Source: Yponomeuta sedellus
Taxonomy: Eukaryota; Arthropoda; Insecta; Lepidoptera; Yponomeutidae
Direction of reading: 5' to 3'
Length of the DNA: 64,000 bases
Assembly: GCA_934045075.1 (NCBI GenBank)
Contig: OW203726.1
Coordinates: forward strand, 8,578,860-8,642,859
The notes beneath the pieces were generated by a model, which was not told the origin of the DNA, ran no database searches, and worked only from the letters and a program-made list of their open reading frames with translations. The position numbers and the translations under genes were made by a program. This document shows positions 4,130 to 62,197 of this stretch, piece after piece (positions within the stretch are counted from its first letter, which is position 1; every line of letters starts with the position of its first letter).

Positions 4130-4263
4130 CAATTGGTAGAGCGCTGGCACGGATAGCCAGAGGTTGCGGGTTTGAATCCCGGCATGGGTGAAATTTTTAG
4201 CCTCTAAATAGGTTTTTAAATTTGTTCCTTAGCACGGGTTAGTGCATTAAAAATAAAAATAGT
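4130..4263 (+). mobile_element. SINE-T copy 1, simple 5'-truncated
   Basis: Starts inside the tRNA-like region (CAATTGGTAGAGCGCTGGC), has a B box GGTTTGAATCC, then GCCTCTAAATAGGTTTTTAA, the hairpin GCACGGGTTAGTGC, and an A-rich tail ending AATAGT. A 14-bp TSD, ATAATTTTTACCCT, lies at 4116-4129 and 4264-4277. Simple 5' truncation with a long TSD shows which end is the true 3' end of the family. Confidence 0.9.
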
Positions 4264-14011: not shown

Positions 14012-14090
14012 GTCAATTTTTAGCCTCTAAATAGGTTTTTAAATTTGTTCCTTAGCACGGGTTAGTGCATTAAAAATAAAAAATAGTGTA
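14012..14090 (+). mobile_element. SINE-T copy 3, strongly 5'-truncated
   Basis: Only the 3' module is present (TTTTTAGCCTCTAAATAGG to AAAAATAGTGTA). A 10-bp TSD, ATCTTTCTTC, lies at 14002-14011 and 14091-14100. Together with copy 1 it defines the A-rich tail as the priming end. Confidence 0.85.
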
Positions 14091-14230
14091 ATCTTTCTTC
14101 CTTCATCCTCTCCACATGTCCAAATCAACGCAGCATTCCTTTCTCAATTCTAGTCACCTCTTTCAGTCCACAACCTTATCTAATCAGACTATTGCGTATC
14201 CTGTCATTCAAAGTAACACTACAAGTACTT

Positions 14231-14410
14231 ATACTATTTTTATTTTTAATGCACTAACCCGTGCTAAGGACAAATTTAAAAAACCTATTTAGAGGCTAAA
14301 AGTTTCACCCATGCCGGGATTCGAACCCGTAACCTCTGGCTATCCGTGCCAGCGCTCTACCAATCCCGAATCCCGGCATGGGTGAAATAGCCTCTAAATA
14401 GGTTTTTTAA
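14231..14410 (-). mobile_element. SINE-T copy 4, fold-back, nested in LINE
   Basis: The left part runs from the reversed tail (ATACTATTTTTATTTTTAAT) through a minus-strand tRNA-like unit. A short opposite-strand part follows (CCCGAATCCCGGCATGGG) and ends GGTTTTTTAAA. An imperfect 13-bp TSD (ACTACAAGTACTT / ACTACACATACTT) lies at 14218-14230 and 14411-14423. Confidence 0.8.
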
Positions 14411-14422
14411 ACTACACATACT

Positions 14423-23580: not shown

Positions 23581-23929
23581 TAAGCTCAGGTTGGGGCCAA
23601 GGTTTTTTTATAATTCCCATTGATTCACAAAGAGAACGATATTCACCATAAACACCTATCTCCGTACCAACTTGTGCTAATAGTAATAGTGAAGCGATTA
23701 CGCCTGAGTTACATGTTTTCCCACTCGTATGTAGAGTGGTCCGCTGACCTGCTCTGATGAAAGTGGTTAGCCCTCTTGTGGCCTGTCCCATGTGATTAGA
23801 TAAGATAAATTTGCACAGTAGGTACTAAAAGGGCACAATCGCCGCTTTCTCGATGTAATAAAAGAGCATAAAACGGGATCGAAACATAAAATAGAGAGTT
23901 TCTTATGATTTAATTAACATATTATTTAA

Positions 23930-24328
23930 AAACCTATTTAGAGGCTAAAAATTTCACCCATGCCGGGATTCGAACCCGCAACCTCTGGCTATCCGTGCCA
24001 GCGCTCTACCAATTGAGCCAATGGGCGACTCACGGCATCAGTGAAATTTCGAACCTCTTAACACTATTCTCTGTATTACGTACAGGCAGCGACATCTGAC
24101 TTAAGCAAATTGCATTACTTACAGCCCCGACTACCTACTTTGCAGTTAGGTTTAACATCGGAACGATATCACTGTACCCACATGATTATACTATTTTTAT
24201 TTTTAATGCACTAACCCGTGCTAAGGAACAAATTTAAAAACCTATTTAGAGGCTAAAAATAGCCTCTAAATAGGTTTTTAAATTTGTTCCTTAGCACGGG
24301 TTAGTGCATTAAAAATAAAAATAGTATA
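23930..24328 (+). mobile_element. SINE-T copy 5, composite fold-back
   Basis: The best-preserved composite. From the left: a reversed TTTTTAAA terminus, a minus-strand tRNA-like unit, and a minus-strand body (GATGTCGCTGCC, reversed AATCATGTGGG head). The reversed 3' tail module follows directly, then an exact opposite-strand copy of that module. An 11-bp TSD, ATATTATTTAA, lies at 23919-23929 and 24329-24339. The head-to-tail junction (AATAGTATAATCATG on the minus strand) shows a dimeric arrangement. Confidence 0.9.
24187..24328. repeat. Perfect 142-bp palindrome (69-bp arms)
   Basis: Arms 24187-24255 and 24260-24328 are exact reverse complements around AAAA. Each arm is one SINE-T 3' module. 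Perfect identity implies a single recent event, such as both arms copied from one template. Confidence 0.95.
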
Positions 24329-24349
24329 ATATTATTTAATTTATGTAGC

Positions 24350-25768: not shown

Positions 25769-25926
25769 TTAAAAACCTATTCAGAGGCTAAAAATTTCAC
25801 CCATCCCGGGACTCGAACCCGCGACGTCTGGATAACCGTGCCAGCGCTCTCCCAACTGAGCTAATGGGCGACTTCCCGGCATCTGTGAAATTTCGAACTT
25901 CTTTTACAATACTCTCTGTGTTACTT
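25769..25926 (-). mobile_element. SINE-T copy 6, terminator end only
   Basis: A minus-strand tRNA-like unit with good A and B boxes. It starts at the reversed TTTTTAA terminus and stops in the body near TGTGTTACTT. The A-rich tail module is missing. No TSD found. Confidence 0.75.
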
Positions 25927-25984
25927 ATGTATGTTTTACTTTACTTCACCAGCTACTGCAATGTATTTACCATGTTTTTTATGC

Positions 25985-34170: not shown

Positions 34171-35019
34171 GTATTGACGGAACTACAAACCTATATAAAA
34201 ACATTAGGCCCCGCACTTATCGACGAACACTTGAGTGCTCATACTATTTTAATTTTTAATGCACTAACCCGTGCTAAGGACAATTTTAAAAACCTATTTA
34301 GAGGCCTGTACGTAATACAGAGAATAGTGTAAAGAGGTTCGAAATTTCACTTATGCCGGTGAGTCACCCATTAGCTCAATTGGAAGAGCGCTGGCACGGA
34401 TAGCCGGAGGTTGCGGGTTCGAATCCCGGCATGGGTGGAATTTTTGGCCTCTAAATAGGTTTTTAAAATTGTCCTTAGCACGGGTTAGTGCATTAAAAAT
34501 TAAAATAGTACAATCATGTGGGTACAGTGATATCATTCCGATGTAAAAACCTAACTGCAAAGTAGGTAGTCGGGGCTGTAAGTGATGCAATTTACTTAAG
34601 CTAGATGTCGCTGCCTGTACGTAATACAGAGAATAGTGTAAAGAGGTTCGAAATTTCACTGATGCCGGTGAGTCGCCCATTGGCTCAATTGGAAGAGCGC
34701 TGGCACGGATAGCTGGAGGTTGCGAGTTCGAATCCCGGCATGGGTGGAATTTTTGGCCTCTAAATAGGTTTTTAAACTTGAGTGCTCGTAAAGACATTCC
34801 TCAATTGCCCAGCCAGCTTCGTAAGAGAATAAGAGAATTTAGTAGCGAACCTGCACAAGAAACTGCTGTCAGTACCTGGTGTTCGGAAAAGATGCCAGGT
34901 GTGTCCTTATGCTAGGCATCGCAAAACGAACCATGTTTGTAAAGGTGGTCAAAAATACATTAGTCCCGAGCACACTGTTACATACTGCCAAGAACGTAGT
35001 ACATCAAAGGCCGATTAAT
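34171..35019 (+). pseudogene. piggyBac-like transposase, C-terminal region and zinc finger, SINE-interrupted
   Basis: Before the SINE the frame reads YIKTLGPALIDEHLSA. After it (34776 on) the reading continues with RKDIPQLPSQLRKRIREF, then shifts frame. It ends with the cysteine-rich finger RKRCQVCPYARHRKTNHVC and TVTYCQERSTSKAD, stop at about 35017-35019. C-x2-C, H, C spacing is as in the piggyBac C-terminal domain. The frameshift and the SINE make it a pseudogene. Confidence 0.72.
34236..34775 (-). mobile_element. SINE-T copy 7, tandem dimer with inverted tail
   Basis: Reversed tail module (ATACTATTTTAATTTTTAAT), then a plus-strand unit with tRNA-like region, tail module ending AAAATAGTAC, then a second full plus-strand unit starting AATCATGTGGGTACAG with its own tRNA-like region, ending GGTTTTTAAA. 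An 11-bp TSD, CTTGAGTGCTC, lies about 34225-34235 and 34776-34786. It sits inside the piggyBac C-terminal coding region. Confidence 0.9.
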
Positions 35020-40424: not shown

Positions 40425-43400
40425 GTAGATAGTCGATACCCAGTCGAGTTATTGGTTATTTTTATTTTTTCCGTAATAGTAGCATATAGTCGCAATAGTA
40501 GTAAGACCAGCGCCATCAAGTGCCAATTTTTTTATCGGTTTCATACTAATTTAATACGTCCTATGTCGCCAACGCATTTAAGATGAATCGATTGAGATCT
40601 CATTTCTCAAAATTTTTCTATTGTTTAAGGAGTTATGAAGAAACAGAATCGGACATACACACATATATATGTAGGTACTCGTCAAATAAATTACTCTTCT
40701 TTTAGGTTTCGCCGCAGTCGGCTAAAGCTACCGCTGGCACTTAGGTGATTTTATACAGTCCAAAATGTGGCAGCGCTTAGACAAACTTTTTGACCAAACA
40801 CCTTTTTTGTAGCTACTGACATGCCTGCTTATGTATGCGGGCAGCACACATGCCATCATGGTGAAGTTTGGCACTAAAGGGGGTCCGATAGAGCCTCCGG
40901 TGCCGACGCCGGTCGTGCCGCCTGCGCAGCCCTACAGAGTGCCCGCGCCCGTTTGGGAAGAACGCACTAATGACAACCCTGACCCAAATGCGCACTGGTA
41001 AGAGCATAAACTTATCAGTACCAACCTATTTTAACGTGATATTCCGTGTGACTTTATAACATTCTTTAGTGGAAACCATGAAATTGAAGTGTAGGAGACA
41101 GATTGCTGGCTGCAGCTGGATGAGGATGGCTGAAGACAAAAATAAGTTGCGTGCGGGGACGAGCACGGGGTGATAGATTAATTGAAATTTTGTGAAAATA
41201 TACTTGCTTAAAAAGCATAACACAAGCGACAAAAAACTTTAGGGCAAAGGGCAAGGAAAAGGTACGCGAAATCGAGGTGCGAACATGTATCAAATTATAC
41301 CGACCTATCAGGCCAATCAGGATAGTGGCAAGTGGCAAACCCAAAAGTCTGCTTAGCAAAAAAATTAAAAAAGTTAAGTTATGCCTTGAACATTAAGGCT
41401 AAATTCATATCGATATCAACCCTTGTATGTTCCCACTGCTAGGGTACGAGTCTCTTCCTGCATCGCAGAAAGGTTAGGCCCTACTCCACCACGCTTATGG
41501 GCGGCTTGTTAACTTCTGACCGTTAGGCCCGCCATTGTCTTACAATCGAAATGAAATAAAAAGGTTTTATTGAAAGTAACACAGAAACTGCGGCTTAATG
41601 AATGTTACAATTCAAACTAGGTATCCATTTCAAAATCTATATCATTTTGGAGAAAAAATGGATAAAGATACTCTTAACTTAGTCTTTTCAAAGTCCTTAA
41701 TTAACACAGATTACATAGTTATTTTAAAACATAGAACTCGTGAATTGTACTGGCTTTAATTCCAGAAATCATTGTCATCTAAATAATCCTTTTTTTAATA
41801 AGCCCTTTTGGCAAAAAGTGTATAATCCTCCATCAAATTCAAAAAAACTAAACCTTATTGCAGGCGCCCACCTCTCTTCATACCAAGCCCGCGCTACACA
41901 CAAGTGGTGTTCAACCCTCCGGAGCCCAAGAATTACAATACAGCCCAGCAGTTTGTCAGCGCCTATAGGCCGCGGACGCCCGAGCCAATCCCAGCGCAAC
42001 CCATACATCAATACATCCTACCCAACCATATTGTGTCTCACCTCAGCTCACAAAGCCTACCGGGCATAGGCCTCAGATACTTCGTTCCTTACTACGTTGA
42101 GGGTGCATTGGAAAAGCAAGATAGAAAGAGACAAGACGATGGGCGCTTCAATGAGATAGAGACGAATGAAGTGGACACGCAAGGACACGCCAGCGACCGG
42201 CAATGGACGGGCGAGAAAGAGGCTGCGACAAGGAGTCTCAAGAAACGAACTTCCGATGAGGTAAGATTTCCGTAGATGATGCTTTCTTCAGCGATATCAC
42301 ATTCAAGGCTATTTTTAAAATAGAGAAAAGCTTATACTATTTTTATTTTTTAATGCACTAACCCGTGCTAACCCGTAAAGAGGTTCGAAATTTCACTGAT
42401 GCCGTGAGTCGCCCATTGGCTCAATTGGTAGAGCGCTGGCATGGATAGCCAGAGGTTGCGGGTTCGAATCCCGGCATGGGTGAAATTTTTAGGCTCTAAA
42501 TAGGTTTTTAAATAGAGAAAAGCTAGTTAGTGACATACGTCACTAATTTTTCATTTACACCTTTACGTGTTCAATTTGTCAATTTTTTGGGTCCAATATT
42601 CGAAGGGTTTTAACGGGAGCGTATCAGTAAGCCTACGCTGTTAATCTCTCTGTCCTTGCTTCTGTTCGTCTATTTTACCTTTAAAGGCCTTGTATATCTT
42701 GAACCGTCATTTGTAGCCAGGAGAAAATGGATTCATAGTGGAAGTGTGGAAACATGCGCCTTTATTTTACGTAATAATTTTTACTGAAGATTTTGGTATC
42801 TTTCCACTAAAGCACTGAAATCTACGTATTATATACCTAAAGGCTATATGTGTATTTTAAAAGCAAGCTAATATGCAGTTATGTAATGTAATGTTTAATG
42901 TAATGTCTCTGTAATGTTTCTATACTATTTTATTTGATTAATATTTAATTTGAGTCAAAACAATCCAGTCAGATGTGGTCATCGTTGCTTCTGAGGAATG
43001 CCATAACCGTGTGGGTATGCAAATTATTTACAATCTACACTATCTATATAAACTGCCAATCTCTATGATACGAATACCAATCAAATTAGAATCTTAATAA
43101 GATACCTAAGCGTCACGCAAATCTTTGAAAAAAACTATTAAATGTCAATATGGCAGTCTTCCGCTTCATCACAAAGTGTCTATTTCGCTAAATGTCCACC
43201 ATTCATAAAATGGCTAGTTCTCAGAATATCTTTTTTCCAAAATCAGTATGAGTAACCTCTGGCAGTATGAGTAGAGAACTGATTATAATTGAAATTGACA
43301 GATTATATTAATATAAACGAAGCAAAGTAGGTGCTCTGTTTGTTTTTTGGTTTTCTTTTAGCTTTTAAAAAGCAATGAATAAAAGTTAACATTTGGCGAA

Positions 43401-44054: not shown

Positions 44055-45909
44055 ACTAGTTAGCCCTTAACGACATAGCTATAAAAGTATTTTTTACATT
44101 TTTTTTTGCAGTTTAGGAATGTAACTATTCAGGCTTTTACAGGGTTACATTGTTTTGTATAAAGTTAAGAAGATATTTTGTCTTTAAATACGTGTAAAGC
44201 AAATGTTATCTTATGTATTTTTTATGTTTTCCCAAATCGGGAAAAATATTGTTTTTTTGAATGTAACCTTTCTGAAAAGTGTAACTTAAAATGCTGTGAT
44301 GTCATTAGATAGTGTAGTAATGTAAGTTATATGTGCCAGATGATGAGTATTTCTTTAGTTTCCTATTCCCATTTTCAGCCTAGTCCGAGTCTCTTCAGAA
44401 GTTATTGCTAGCGTTTCACAGTTTTTTCGGCTTCGGTCACTTTCGAAACCAAAGGTTCGAAACCAGGTTTCCTAAAAAGAAAAATAATTCTCTTTTCGAA
44501 ACTGGTTTCGAACCTTTGGTTTCGAAAGTGGCCGAAGCCGTTTTTTCATAGTTTCAGCTAAATATCGATACTAGTATTAAATATTTCTAATTTTTATTTT
44601 TTAATCTCATCAATCACTATTTGGTCTTCTTTGATGAAGAATCTCGGACTAAAGCCTTTTTATAATGCAAGAAGAAAACATAGCAAAAGCAATTGTTCAC
44701 TTAGGGGTCATCGACAGGTAAATTATGTCACCCGTTTTTCCTGAGTTTTGCAGGTCCTGTGTGTTCATTCTAGAGTTGAAGTTTTGGGTTGAATCACTTT
44801 AGATTTGTGATATGTCTGTGACTCGTCTCCGCATTCGTTGATTTCCTTGTGACTTACTTTACGGATGACCCTTAAAAAAAGAAATAATGCACAGGATTAT
44901 TTGTGAAAGGAAACAAACCGCAAAATAATTTATGCAATGGGTTATAATTGTTTTCAAACTGATGACTTTATTTATAGCTATACATCACGATTAAATCTAC
45001 TGAAATGATATAGCGTTTGTCCATAAACAGTTAATAGGGGAAAAGTTATCGCATTGTAAAATAGCTTCTAATATCAAACATTACTGTTTATTGCTATTGA
45101 AGAGTAAGTATTTTTTAAGTATGCATTCACGAAAATGTATCGTTTAATTTAAAGAAAACTATCTATTTTAGTATTAAACTAGCGTATCGATGGAGGATGT
45201 AATTTTTAGGGAAAGTTACATATAACTTTCTACATTAGCTGTTGCTTGACGAATGTAAGAAATAATTATGTTATGACAACAACGACCTACAGTCTATTTA
45301 TTCTTACTTGTCTAATTTAGTAAACAAGATTCTACCCGTAAACTGTAACTTTTTAGTCCAAAACTGCCATATTTTCATAAATGAAGTAACTTGGAACACT
45401 GTTTTAGATAACACGCTGCCAATTTTATAAAGATAGTTAATGATAGTTCATGAATTTGCGAGAAAATGTCTAGTTTAGGCATCTAATCTCAATGTTAAGG
45501 TTAGAATCTTGTTTACTAAATTGTACAAGTAAGAATAAATAGACTGTACGATTTTTTTCTAAAATTATATGTATAGGTATAGAAATTCGCATGAATAAAA
45601 CAATTTTTTTTTTATAACCTAGACAGCTAAATGTGACTTCAAAAAAGGTCTGCACTGTCAAAATAACGCTTGTAAATATGTAAAAATAAACTAATACGAA
45701 AACTTTATTGCTTGTATTCTTTGAACTTTAGCAACATTTCCATAAGAACGCACCAAATAGTATTGCCGCAAGTATAATATGCCAAAACGATGGTTTGTGG
45801 TAAGAAGTATGACTTTTGTAATACTACGTGGCCTATTAGGTGAATCGGAATCAGGCTAATGAGATAGCTCTTCAAGAAGTCAACATCGTTCATCTTTTTC
45901 CAAACTAGC
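44055..45909. other. 3' flank of the gene, AT-rich
   Basis: Part of this is probably 3' UTR. Apart from the hairpin at 44428-44540 no repeat or second gene is recognised. Confidence 0.35.
44428..44540. repeat. Long hairpin, 43-bp arms, downstream of the gene
   Basis: Left arm 44428-44471 (CGGCTTCGGTCACTTTCGAA ...) and right arm 44498-44540 pair with one mismatch and one bulge around a 26-nt loop. Could be in the gene's 3' UTR, or be a small-RNA hairpin or MITE. Confidence 0.85.
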
Positions 45910-51753: not shown

Positions 51754-51958
51754 ACACTATTTTATTTTTAATGCACTAACCCGTGCTAAGGAACAAATTT
51801 AAAAACCTATTTAGAGGCTAAAAAAGAGGTTCGAAATTTCACTGATGCCGTGAGTCGCCCATTGGCTCAATTGGTAGAGCGCTGGCACGGATAGCCAGAG
51901 GTTGCGGGTTCGAATCCCGGCATGGGTGAAATTTTTACCCTCTAAATAGGTTTTTAAA
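51754..51958 (-). mobile_element. SINE-T copy 9, fold-back
   Basis: Reversed tail module from ACACTATTTTATTTTTAATG, then a direct unit starting AAGAGGTTCG with tRNA-like A and B boxes, ending GGTTTTTAAA. An 11-bp TSD, CGTAGTATATT, lies at 51743-51753 and 51959-51969. Confidence 0.9.
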
Positions 51959-54682: not shown

Positions 54683-54959
54683 ATACTATTTTTATTTTTA
54701 ATGCACTTACCTGTGCATTAAAATTGTCCTTAATTTTAAAAACCTATTTAGAGGCTAAAAATTAAGTGATGCAATTTACTTCAGACAGATGTCGCTGCCT
54801 GTACGTAATACAGAGAATAGTGTAAAGAGGTTCGAAATTTCACTGATGCCGGTGAGTCACCCATTAGCTCAGTTGGAAAGAGCGCTGGCACGGATAGCCA
54901 GAGGTCGCGGGTTCGAATCCCGGCATGGGTGGAATTTTTAGCCTCTAAATAGGTTTTTA
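54683..54959 (-). mobile_element. SINE-T copy 10, fold-back
   Basis: Reversed tail module (ATACTATTTTTATTTTTAAT, diverged hairpin), then a direct unit from AAGTGATGCAATTTAC with tRNA-like region (TAGCTCAGTTGG, GGTTCGAATCC), ending GGTTTTTA. An 11-12 bp TSD, ATATTTTGACT(A), lies at 54672-54682 and 54960-54970. Confidence 0.9.
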
Positions 54960-59771: not shown

Positions 59772-60079
59772 ATATTATTTTTTTCATGCACTAACCCGTA
59801 CTAAGGTGAAATTTCGAACCTCTTTACAATACTCTATATATTACGTACCTACAGGCAGCGACATCTCGCTGAAGAAATTTTCATCACTTGCAGCCCCGAT
59901 TACCTACTTTGCAGTTAGGTACTTTGAAATTTTCCTTAGCACGGGTTAGTGCATTAAAAAAAATCATGTAGGTACAGCGATATCATTCCTATGTAAAGCC
60001 TAGGAGAGTTCTGGCACGGTTAGCCAGAGGTTCGAGTCCCGGCATGGGTGGAATTTTTTGCCTCGAAATATGTTTTTAA
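59772..60079 (-). mobile_element. SINE-T copy 11, four-segment composite
   Basis: Reversed tail, reversed body, direct tail module (TTAGCACGGGTTAGTGCATT), then a direct head starting ATCATGTAGGTACAGCG with a shortened tRNA-like region, ending GTTTTTA. A 12-bp TSD, AATTTTGGGACT, lies at 59760-59771 and 60080-60091. The tail-to-head junction appears again, as in copies 5 and 7. Confidence 0.87.
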
Positions 60080-61925: not shown

Positions 61926-62197
61926 TTAAAAACCTATTTAGAGGCTAAAAATGTCACCCATGCCGGGATTCGAACCCGCAACCTCTGGCTATCCGTACCA
62001 GCGCTCTACCAATTGAGCCAATGGGCGACTCACGGCATCAGTGAAATTTCGAACCTCTTTACAATATTCTCTGTATTACGTACAGGCAGAGGTTGCGGGT
62101 TCGAATCCCGGCATGGGTGACATTTTTAGCCTCTAAATAGGTTTTTAAATTTGTTCCTTAGCACGGGTTAGTGCATTAAAAATAAAAATAGTGTAAT
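61926..62197 (+). mobile_element. SINE-T copy 12, fold-back
   Basis: The left part is inverted, from TTAAAAACC through a complete minus-strand tRNA-like unit into the body (ATTACGTACAGGCAG). The right part is direct, starting within the tRNA-like region (AGGTTGCGGGTTCG), to the tail AAAAATAGTG. A 14-bp TSD, TAGGTGGAAGAAAT, lies at 61912-61925 and 62198-62211. Confidence 0.9.

Follow-up and report, generated by a model that had tools for sequence, protein, structure and literature searches.

We consider it probable that a non-autonomous repeat with a tRNA-Ser-like promoter in the genome of Yponomeuta sedellus owes its insertions to a Penelope-like element that uses two-ended target priming. 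Its typical copy is a head-to-head hairpin with two fixed outer ends; because this is a Penelope signature, the repeat was probably copied by Penelope rather than by LINE machinery. The same genome carries an abundant, young Penelope family of the same anatomy. Our starting point was a stretch of 64,000 nucleotides (the window, C5:8578860-8642859 of the 657.5-Mb genome), and we extended the analysis to a wider sample of 115 sources and 319,638 bases, window included.

The repeat unit

We wrote the unit, U, as 308 nt from the focal copy (23930-24328) in tRNA sense. It opens at U1 with CATGTGGG and its final letters, up to U308, are ...AAAAATAGTATAAT. The tRNA-like part occupies about U157-232, and the unit holds two TTTTT runs (U234-238 and U253-257), AAATTT at U258-263 directly after the second run, and a stem-loop at U272-285 (GCACGGGTTAGTGC); the 48-nt tail is U261-308. 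Compared with shuffled sequences, neither hairpin region of the unit folded better. ARAGORN called tRNA-Ser in seven window copies and Rfam tRNA scores reached 44.4 bits, and a tRNA-related Pol III promoter is accordingly predicted in the repeat, whose RNA would be a Pol III transcript. The unit has no tRNA head at its 5' end, the tRNA lying mid-unit, so it is not a standard SINE and the term fits its promoter and size more than its layout. At 308 nt it is also too short to hold an ORF for a telomerase-like reverse transcriptase (RT) with GIY-YIG. A hammerhead ribozyme is common in the Penelope pseudo-LTR and is not known to be universal there; Rfam matches at E ≤ 5 included none in the window or in the 1.5 kb of L125, which covers a Penelope 3' region and its flank. 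Since the repeat has no RT/endonuclease ORF and no hammerhead was found, we classed it as an element that works in the Penelope manner, not as Penelope proper.

Units also occur in tandem, with a junction that reads TRTAATCAT exactly in 75 of 80 cases. Among 84 fold-backs, 28 antisense arms (>262 nt) and 8 sense arms were longer than one unit, and a large hairpin at L104 (C1:12406400-12409400) has about four units of a 312-nt variant per arm. Genome-wide, we found 36,090 exact matches to a 27-nt piece of the tail, tandem units counted singly, and 0 for the reversed control. The 15-mer TAGCCTCTAAATAGG was followed by unit sequence 21,266 times and by flank unlike the unit at U264-268 12,003 times.

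Several other observations concern these sequences and their neighbors. The seven ARAGORN tRNA-Ser(GGA) calls in the window (9705, 23953, 34364, 42409, 51855, 54857 and 61953) all lie inside repeat copies, and predictor tRNA counts would therefore be inflated in this genome. A second tRNA-like repeat family, GCAAGAGGTC...CCCGGC followed by an A-run, matches the T-arm part of the unit only, over about 25-40 bp each at L003, L005, L015, L037, L076, L078 and L081. At C4:5507601-5507974 (G000), five tail pieces at an exact spacing of 85 bp may form a short satellite derived from the repeat's tail. A 3.4-kb DNA transposon with the terminal inverted repeat GGATGATGGGC interrupts the repeat precisely at the U260/U261 boundary in both L101 and L102, facing opposite ways in the two and having a 657-aa frame in L102; L100 and L103 hold only its right junction with the tail. 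Finally, a long near-perfect inverted repeat at window positions 44431-44537, perhaps a MITE-like palindrome, scores as a miRNA precursor below threshold on both strands.

Copies in the window

We found 12 copies in the window, nine of them fold-backs and three single-arm, in agreement with a first-pass annotation that had described nine of about 12 copies as two segments in opposite orientation. It had also given all nine target-site duplications (TSDs) of 11-15 bp. These are exact at eight of the nine (seven with less slack); at 14229-14411 the TSD is imperfect only, as judged by eye. The antisense arm of the focal copy starts at U261, passes U1 and continues into the preceding unit as far as U234. 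The copies and the parts of the focal copy are as follows:

23930..24328, minus strand: focal fold-back copy, antisense arm then sense arm
23919..23929, no strand: left TSD of the focal copy, ATATTATTTAA
23953..24028, minus strand: tRNA-Ser(GGA)-like segment in the focal antisense arm (ARAGORN; Rfam RF00005, 40 bits)
24260..24328, plus strand: focal sense arm (U238-308), bearing the 48-nt tail U261-308
24329..24339, no strand: right TSD of the focal copy, ATATTATTTAA
9676..9885, plus strand: fold-back copy, TSD TGAAGGTGATCT (in one of two TSD scans only)
14229..14411, minus strand: fold-back copy without an exact TSD
34241..34775, minus strand: fold-back copy with an antisense arm longer than one unit, TSD GAGCACTCAAGT
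42333..42509, minus strand: fold-back copy, TSD AGCTTTTCTCTATTT
51754..51957, minus strand: fold-back copy, TSD AATATACTACGT
54684..54959, minus strand: fold-back copy, '-+-+' or '-+' depending on segmentation, TSD TAGTCAAAATAT
59772..60079, minus strand: fold-back copy, diverged and rearranged, TSD AGTCCCAAAATT
61926..62197, plus strand: fold-back copy, TSD TAGGTGGAAGAAAT
4130..4263, plus strand: single-arm copy with its end at U308, TSD ATAATTTTTACCCT
14012..14090, plus strand: single-arm copy with its end at U308, TSD ATCTTTCTTC
25769..25927, minus strand: single-arm copy with its end at U259, no TSD found

Two fixed outer ends in the wider sample

Sources for the wider sample came from three selections: a tail pattern on contig C1, likeness to the focal copy, and a U260 end. 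All were segmented against the 308-nt unit. This yielded 169 elements of at least 35 bp, none at a locus edge, whose ends we classed as 260 (U250-268) or 308 (U290-316); the end-pair and inner-end counts exclude the similarity-picked loci, those selected for likeness to the focal copy. The arm order was '-+' in 113 elements, '+' in 42, '-+-+' in 8, '-+-' in 4 and '+-+' in 2. Simple tail-to-tail '+-' copies were absent from all 169, and 14 complex elements do contain an inner +/- junction.

The outer ends proved to be fixed, one at the A-rich tail and the other at a single site within the unit, as had been claimed from the window: 64 of 67 '-+' and '-+-+' fold-backs with a TSD of at least 9 bp end at U~260 and U~308, and so have the short tail at one inverted end only. 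The other three were 260/260 (2) and other/308 (1), with no 308/308 pair; chance TSDs of at least 9 bp arose in 6 of 675 re-paired flanks. When no TSD was demanded, 84 of 97 simple '-+' elements were 260/308, 9 were other/308, 2 were 260/260, 1 was 260/other and 1, which lacks a TSD, was 308/308. The result is independent of the tail pattern, since the 20 loci chosen by their U260 end gave the same pair: 14 of their 21 elements were fold-backs, and all 14 were 260/308. Another 26 elements, in tail-pattern loci, lacked the search tail; 13 were simple fold-backs (9 of them 260/308), 1 was '-+-+', 1 was '-+-' and 11 were single-arm. Using the TSD as a ruler for the last possibly templated base of the U260 arm in 63 fold-backs, we found that the maximal template-derived end peaks at U260-261 (37/63). 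Either start site can serve alone: outside the similarity-picked loci, 16 single-arm copies had a TSD, 10 of them ending at 308 and 6 at 260, and several TSDs of the latter are short or simple.

Target nicks and primer pairing

The flanks of 70 fold-backs with TSDs of at least 10 bp (similarity-picked loci included; 57 without them) point to like nick motifs on both strands. To the left of the TSD we found A at -2 in 47 and C at -1 in 32, and to the right G, T and T at +1 to +3 in 27, 42 and 36, against a background flank composition of 19% for C or G and 31% for A or T; these flank letters are somewhat sharpened, because TSDs were extended to the full match and the adjoining letter then cannot equal the element's own. 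The TSD itself tends to start A-A and finish T-T. Read on both strands, the flanks give one motif, T^GTT, at positions 12-14 bp apart. The primer shares a mean of 2.03 bases with the template at U260, compared with 0.45 for background flanks and 0.73 for re-paired TSDs, a comparison controlled for the U260 side. We found support for the part of the earlier proposal in which a staggered pair of nicks primes two cDNAs, one on each strand, with starts that are fixed and far ends that vary.

A Penelope family of the same anatomy

A peptide search, in which 150 of 1,784 candidates were scored, revealed a large young Penelope family, and other Penelope groups were also present among the matches listed. 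The GIY-YIG match of this family (E value 2.4e-4, 21.8 bits) falls just under the Pfam cut-off of 22.6. Twelve of 19 relatives of the endonuclease bear lepidopteran names, one is labeled Escherichia coli, which we took for a mislabeled contig, and PF26215 is annotated on 5 of the 19. A relative from Parnassius comprises the RT end and the start of GIY-YIG; its RT part is assigned from a weak Pfam match (RVT_1, E value 0.0038, 17.4 bits, cut-off 29.6), the source name and a YVDD motif. Used as a query, this relative gave matches of 77-79% identity, many of them within 791-aa frames that also hold the endonuclease (150 of 1,432 candidates scored). A profile search with Pfam PF01541 returned one match, which we take to be a host SLX1-like gene.

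Across the 150 scored places, Penelope neighbors within 12 kb were head-to-head '-+' in 30 cases and tail-to-tail '+-' in none, and same-strand neighbors lay 2,692-2,706 bp apart in 12 of 13, the spacing of 2.7-kb tandems. The family's 54-nt 3' end has 1,111 exact copies. Both ends are available for three Penelope fold-backs (C1:9.17 Mb, L022 and L032), and each of these pairs a tailed end with an untailed one; the tail, on one arm, is 33-37 nt long and the TSDs are 9-12 bp (up to 12 at L022, 9 at L032). Four further loci gave one Penelope end only. At C1:9.17 Mb, the untailed arm finishes in ...CAGTTTTAAT and its partner continues for 33 nt to ...CTTAGAAAATA (by eye), each followed by the 12-bp TSD TTATAAAACGTT, and the fold-back at L022 is nested in a copy of the tRNA-carrying repeat. 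By arithmetic, the Penelope tail begins with an ATG whose phase is that of the 791-aa frame; in an excerpt on the Adineta Penelope (PMC3846280), the tail likewise runs into the ORF.

The Penelope end and the repeat's end can be aligned in register over both start sites and the stem-loop region with a score of 16.5 (p 0.002 against plain shuffles and 0.004 against dinucleotide shuffles). Of 63,102 random genomic windows, 61 scored as high, and scores of this kind are inflated where sequence is rich in A/T, so a relationship between the two 3' ends is suggestive rather than proven. Another Penelope family of this genome may be closer to the repeat's end. We found no tRNA in the Penelope part of L125, where the single match is a neighboring repeat copy. 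Lastly, we searched with exact tail pieces that lack the repeat's upstream sequence, and 100 of 222, 38 of 38, 100 of 614 and 22 of 64 matches were listed with letters. Among these listed matches to exact pieces there was no LINE 3' end, and no non-repeat element with the repeat's exact tail, Penelope included; they consisted of the repeat's own junctions and one DNA transposon inserted in the repeat, with no other recurrent upstream sequence.

Inner junctions and overlapping arms

Over the sampled copies, the outer ends are fixed and the inner breakpoints scattered: inner ends fall between U10 and U301 in the 84 unselected fold-backs with the 260/308 pair. Short homologies are often found at the junctions, and small inserts at some. 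In 8 of 84 fold-backs the inner ends of the two arms coincide to within 3 nt, against 2.7 expected (p 0.0035). Of the 53 fold-backs with one-unit arms, 42 have arms that cover a common stretch of the RNA; in 33, the antisense arm extends further 5' than the sense arm, and so was not copied from it.

Two clusters of ends should be mentioned. A junction hotspot at U233/238 was traced to the loci chosen for similarity to the focal copy. Far ends also accumulate at U184 (11/234), which in 7 of 100 listed junctions was joined to about U272. U184 lies just 3' of the base matching tRNA G26, as if the RT had met a methylated G, and position 26 is dimethyl-G in many tRNAs. Three of the U184 far ends have 4-nt homology to the other arm (U184/201), so an RT stop at G26 stays a suggestion.

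Could an APE-type LINE move the repeat, with classical twin priming made frequent by a favored internal annealing site upstream of the 3' stem-loop? We regard this as unlikely, although the A-rich tail, the microhomology at the internal site and the TSD length would suit it, and the inversions resemble the 5' inversions of L1, which have TSDs of 10-20 bp in an excerpt of PMC4245944. The search for a LINE end covered exact pieces and listed matches only, which leaves some room for such a partner. L1-type twin priming would predict a variable internal priming point and non-overlapping arms; we found over half of the ends at U260-261 and mostly overlapping arms, and one RNA primed once per site would need the overlapping stretch to be copied twice. 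Inversions are a minority among L1 insertions, whereas 9 of 12 window copies are inverted, and we know of no LINE arms made of several exact units. The matches listed contained no LINE end. The same excerpt (PMC4245944) reports 5' inversions for L1 in human cells and for one Nimb-2_DR insert, and not for ZfL2-1.

The inner end and the source of the two arms

The first-pass annotation had placed the fixed inner site where Pol III would stop at TTTTT, and had suggested two RNAs, one terminated there and one read-through. The actual site is 3-4 nt further on. In 29 of 63 fold-backs, the TSD leaves at least AA of the AAA that follows TTTTT uncovered; the AAA is thus templated, and the RNA that was used extends past the T5 run. 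We also took the first 100 of the 12,003 genome-wide U260 ends, set aside 9 tail variants and examined the remaining 91 listed ends. These depart from the unit before TTTTT is completed in 14 cases and exactly after it in 10, and 67 retain at least TTTTTA, with the whole TTTTTAAA kept in 54. The templated AAA rules out the Pol III terminator as the inner end, and the fixed inner end is most likely a Penelope tail site.

The two arms of an element share their source. At nine variable sites they agree in 75 of 83 comparisons, compared with a mean of 52% and a maximum of 73% in 500 rounds of re-paired arms, and rare variants are common to both arms in 6 of 75 comparisons within elements against 28 of 4,791 between them. 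Concordance may come partly from subfamilies active at different times: the ages of the two main variants differ and overlap. In the younger half of the elements, the arms are concordant in 11/11 and 14/14 at the two main sites. Shared source variants indicate that one RNA, or RNAs of one locus, supplied both arms, and independent loading of two RNAs is unlikely. The end pairs are those expected if 308 and 260 sit on one RNA, with 308/308 in 0 of 67 fold-backs with a TSD (1 of 97 when none is demanded) and 260/260 in 2 of 67.

It is therefore very improbable that the fold-backs come from two independent RNAs, of which one stops at a Pol III terminator in TTTTT, the other reads through it and each is primed at a nick of its own. 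The inner end is indeed close to the T5 run, single-arm copies finish at either site, and an excerpt of PMC2837659 proposes dual priming by two mRNAs for L1. The templated AAA contradicts a terminated RNA, and the missing 308/308 pairs together with the arm concordance speak against two independently drawn RNAs. Moreover, the three Penelope fold-backs have a like pair of ends with no tRNA in the Penelope part of L125.

A fold-back master or a self-primed (snap-back) cDNA as the maker of inverted copies is scarcely credible and is ruled out as a general route, because inner junctions vary from copy to copy in the unselected set and 33 of 53 antisense arms reach further 5'; some junctions are palindromic (U233/238), recurring among loci similar to the focal copy, self-priming has been proposed for Penelope palindromes in an excerpt of PMC3846280, and snap-back may account for single junctions.

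Proposed mechanism

Under insertion by a Penelope-like element, a Penelope-type RT/GIY-YIG protein would cut the two strands of an A/T-rich target at points some 12-14 bp from each other (AAC^...^GTT), and the 3' end at each nick would prime reverse transcription of the repeat RNA at a fixed start site. The two start sites would be adjacent: one at U~308, the other 48 nt closer to the 5' end of the unit, at U~260, where AAAUUU lies shortly before the stem-loop GCACGGGUUAGUGC. Each cDNA would extend to whichever 5' end, RT stop or unit it reached, and the far ends would then be joined, often via short homologies, to leave head-to-head arms of which one has the 48-nt tail. Tandem RNAs of several units would give multi-unit arms. 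The Penelope protein would thus mobilize the repeat in trans, and a single RNA molecule would feed both arms.

We further favor, with somewhat less assurance, the view that the repeat parasitizes a Penelope-like element in the manner of a SINE. It would be an RNA with a tRNA promoter, equipped with the two start sites and the stem-loop of a Penelope 3' end, and two-ended target-primed reverse transcription would have multiplied it in trans to tens of thousands of copies. If this is true, SINEs are not bound to LINEs, and the copies are a natural record of Penelope insertion in which every cDNA start, stop and join can be read.

Comparison with known systems

The closest likeness is to Penelope-like elements of the Penelope/Poseidon clade, which in excerpts of PMC11167929 and PMC3846280 share with the repeat tandem or partial-tandem units, head-to-head arms, a tail on one arm, two adjacent RT start sites and short, variable TSDs. 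The pseudo-LTRs of the Adineta Penelope are arranged in tandem and inverted, and one of them bears a 31-bp tail (PMC3846280, in part). PAc, the Penelope of an Anolis lizard, is called the first Penelope protein active in vitro; it starts at two adjacent internal sites, the interval between them becoming the tail, and it cleaves and extends both strands in vitro, a step that we infer for the repeat (PMC11167929, in part). The repeat differs in having no ORF and a tRNA-like promoter inside the unit, and in its tail, which is 48 nt as against 30-40 in Penelope-like elements and is present in tens of thousands. In the PAc excerpt, start site and cleaved DNA show no homology, unlike the repeat's primers, which share 2 nt on average with their start site (PMC11167929). 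Short nonautonomous Penelope elements are mentioned for heliconiine butterflies in an excerpt of PMC6685494; these are likewise short, non-autonomous, lepidopteran and Penelope-related, and are likened to the repeat by description only.

Like the tRNA SINEs of Lepidoptera (excerpts of PMC8010984 and, for Metulj, PMC6685494), the repeat is about 300 bp long, with a tRNA-like promoter, TSDs and a high copy number. Unlike them, it has its tRNA at U~157-232 of a tandem 308-nt unit, most of its sampled copies are two-ended fold-backs, and no LINE 3' end was found among the matches listed. L1 twin priming was reportedly described by Ostertag and Kazazian in 2001. With twin priming and dual priming (PMC2837659, in part) the repeat shares cDNAs from two nicks, a head-to-head inversion, TSDs and microhomology; it differs in that its second start is fixed, inversion is the rule and the arms overlap on the RNA. 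In the open-licence literature we found no precedent for Penelope mobilizing a tRNA repeat.

Penelope insertion is poorly understood, and many young copies with TSDs are an in vivo counterpart to the work in vitro: they give the nick motif, the stagger, both start sites, the pairing of the arms, the rules of joining and the single source of the arms. Repeat copies also explain the tRNA-Ser calls of the window, and similar hairpin repeats may be mistaken for MITEs or for random inversions of the L1 type. SINEs are conventionally presented as LINE parasites, and a tRNA-promoter repeat with the marks of Penelope insertion would extend such parasitism to the third class of retroelements.
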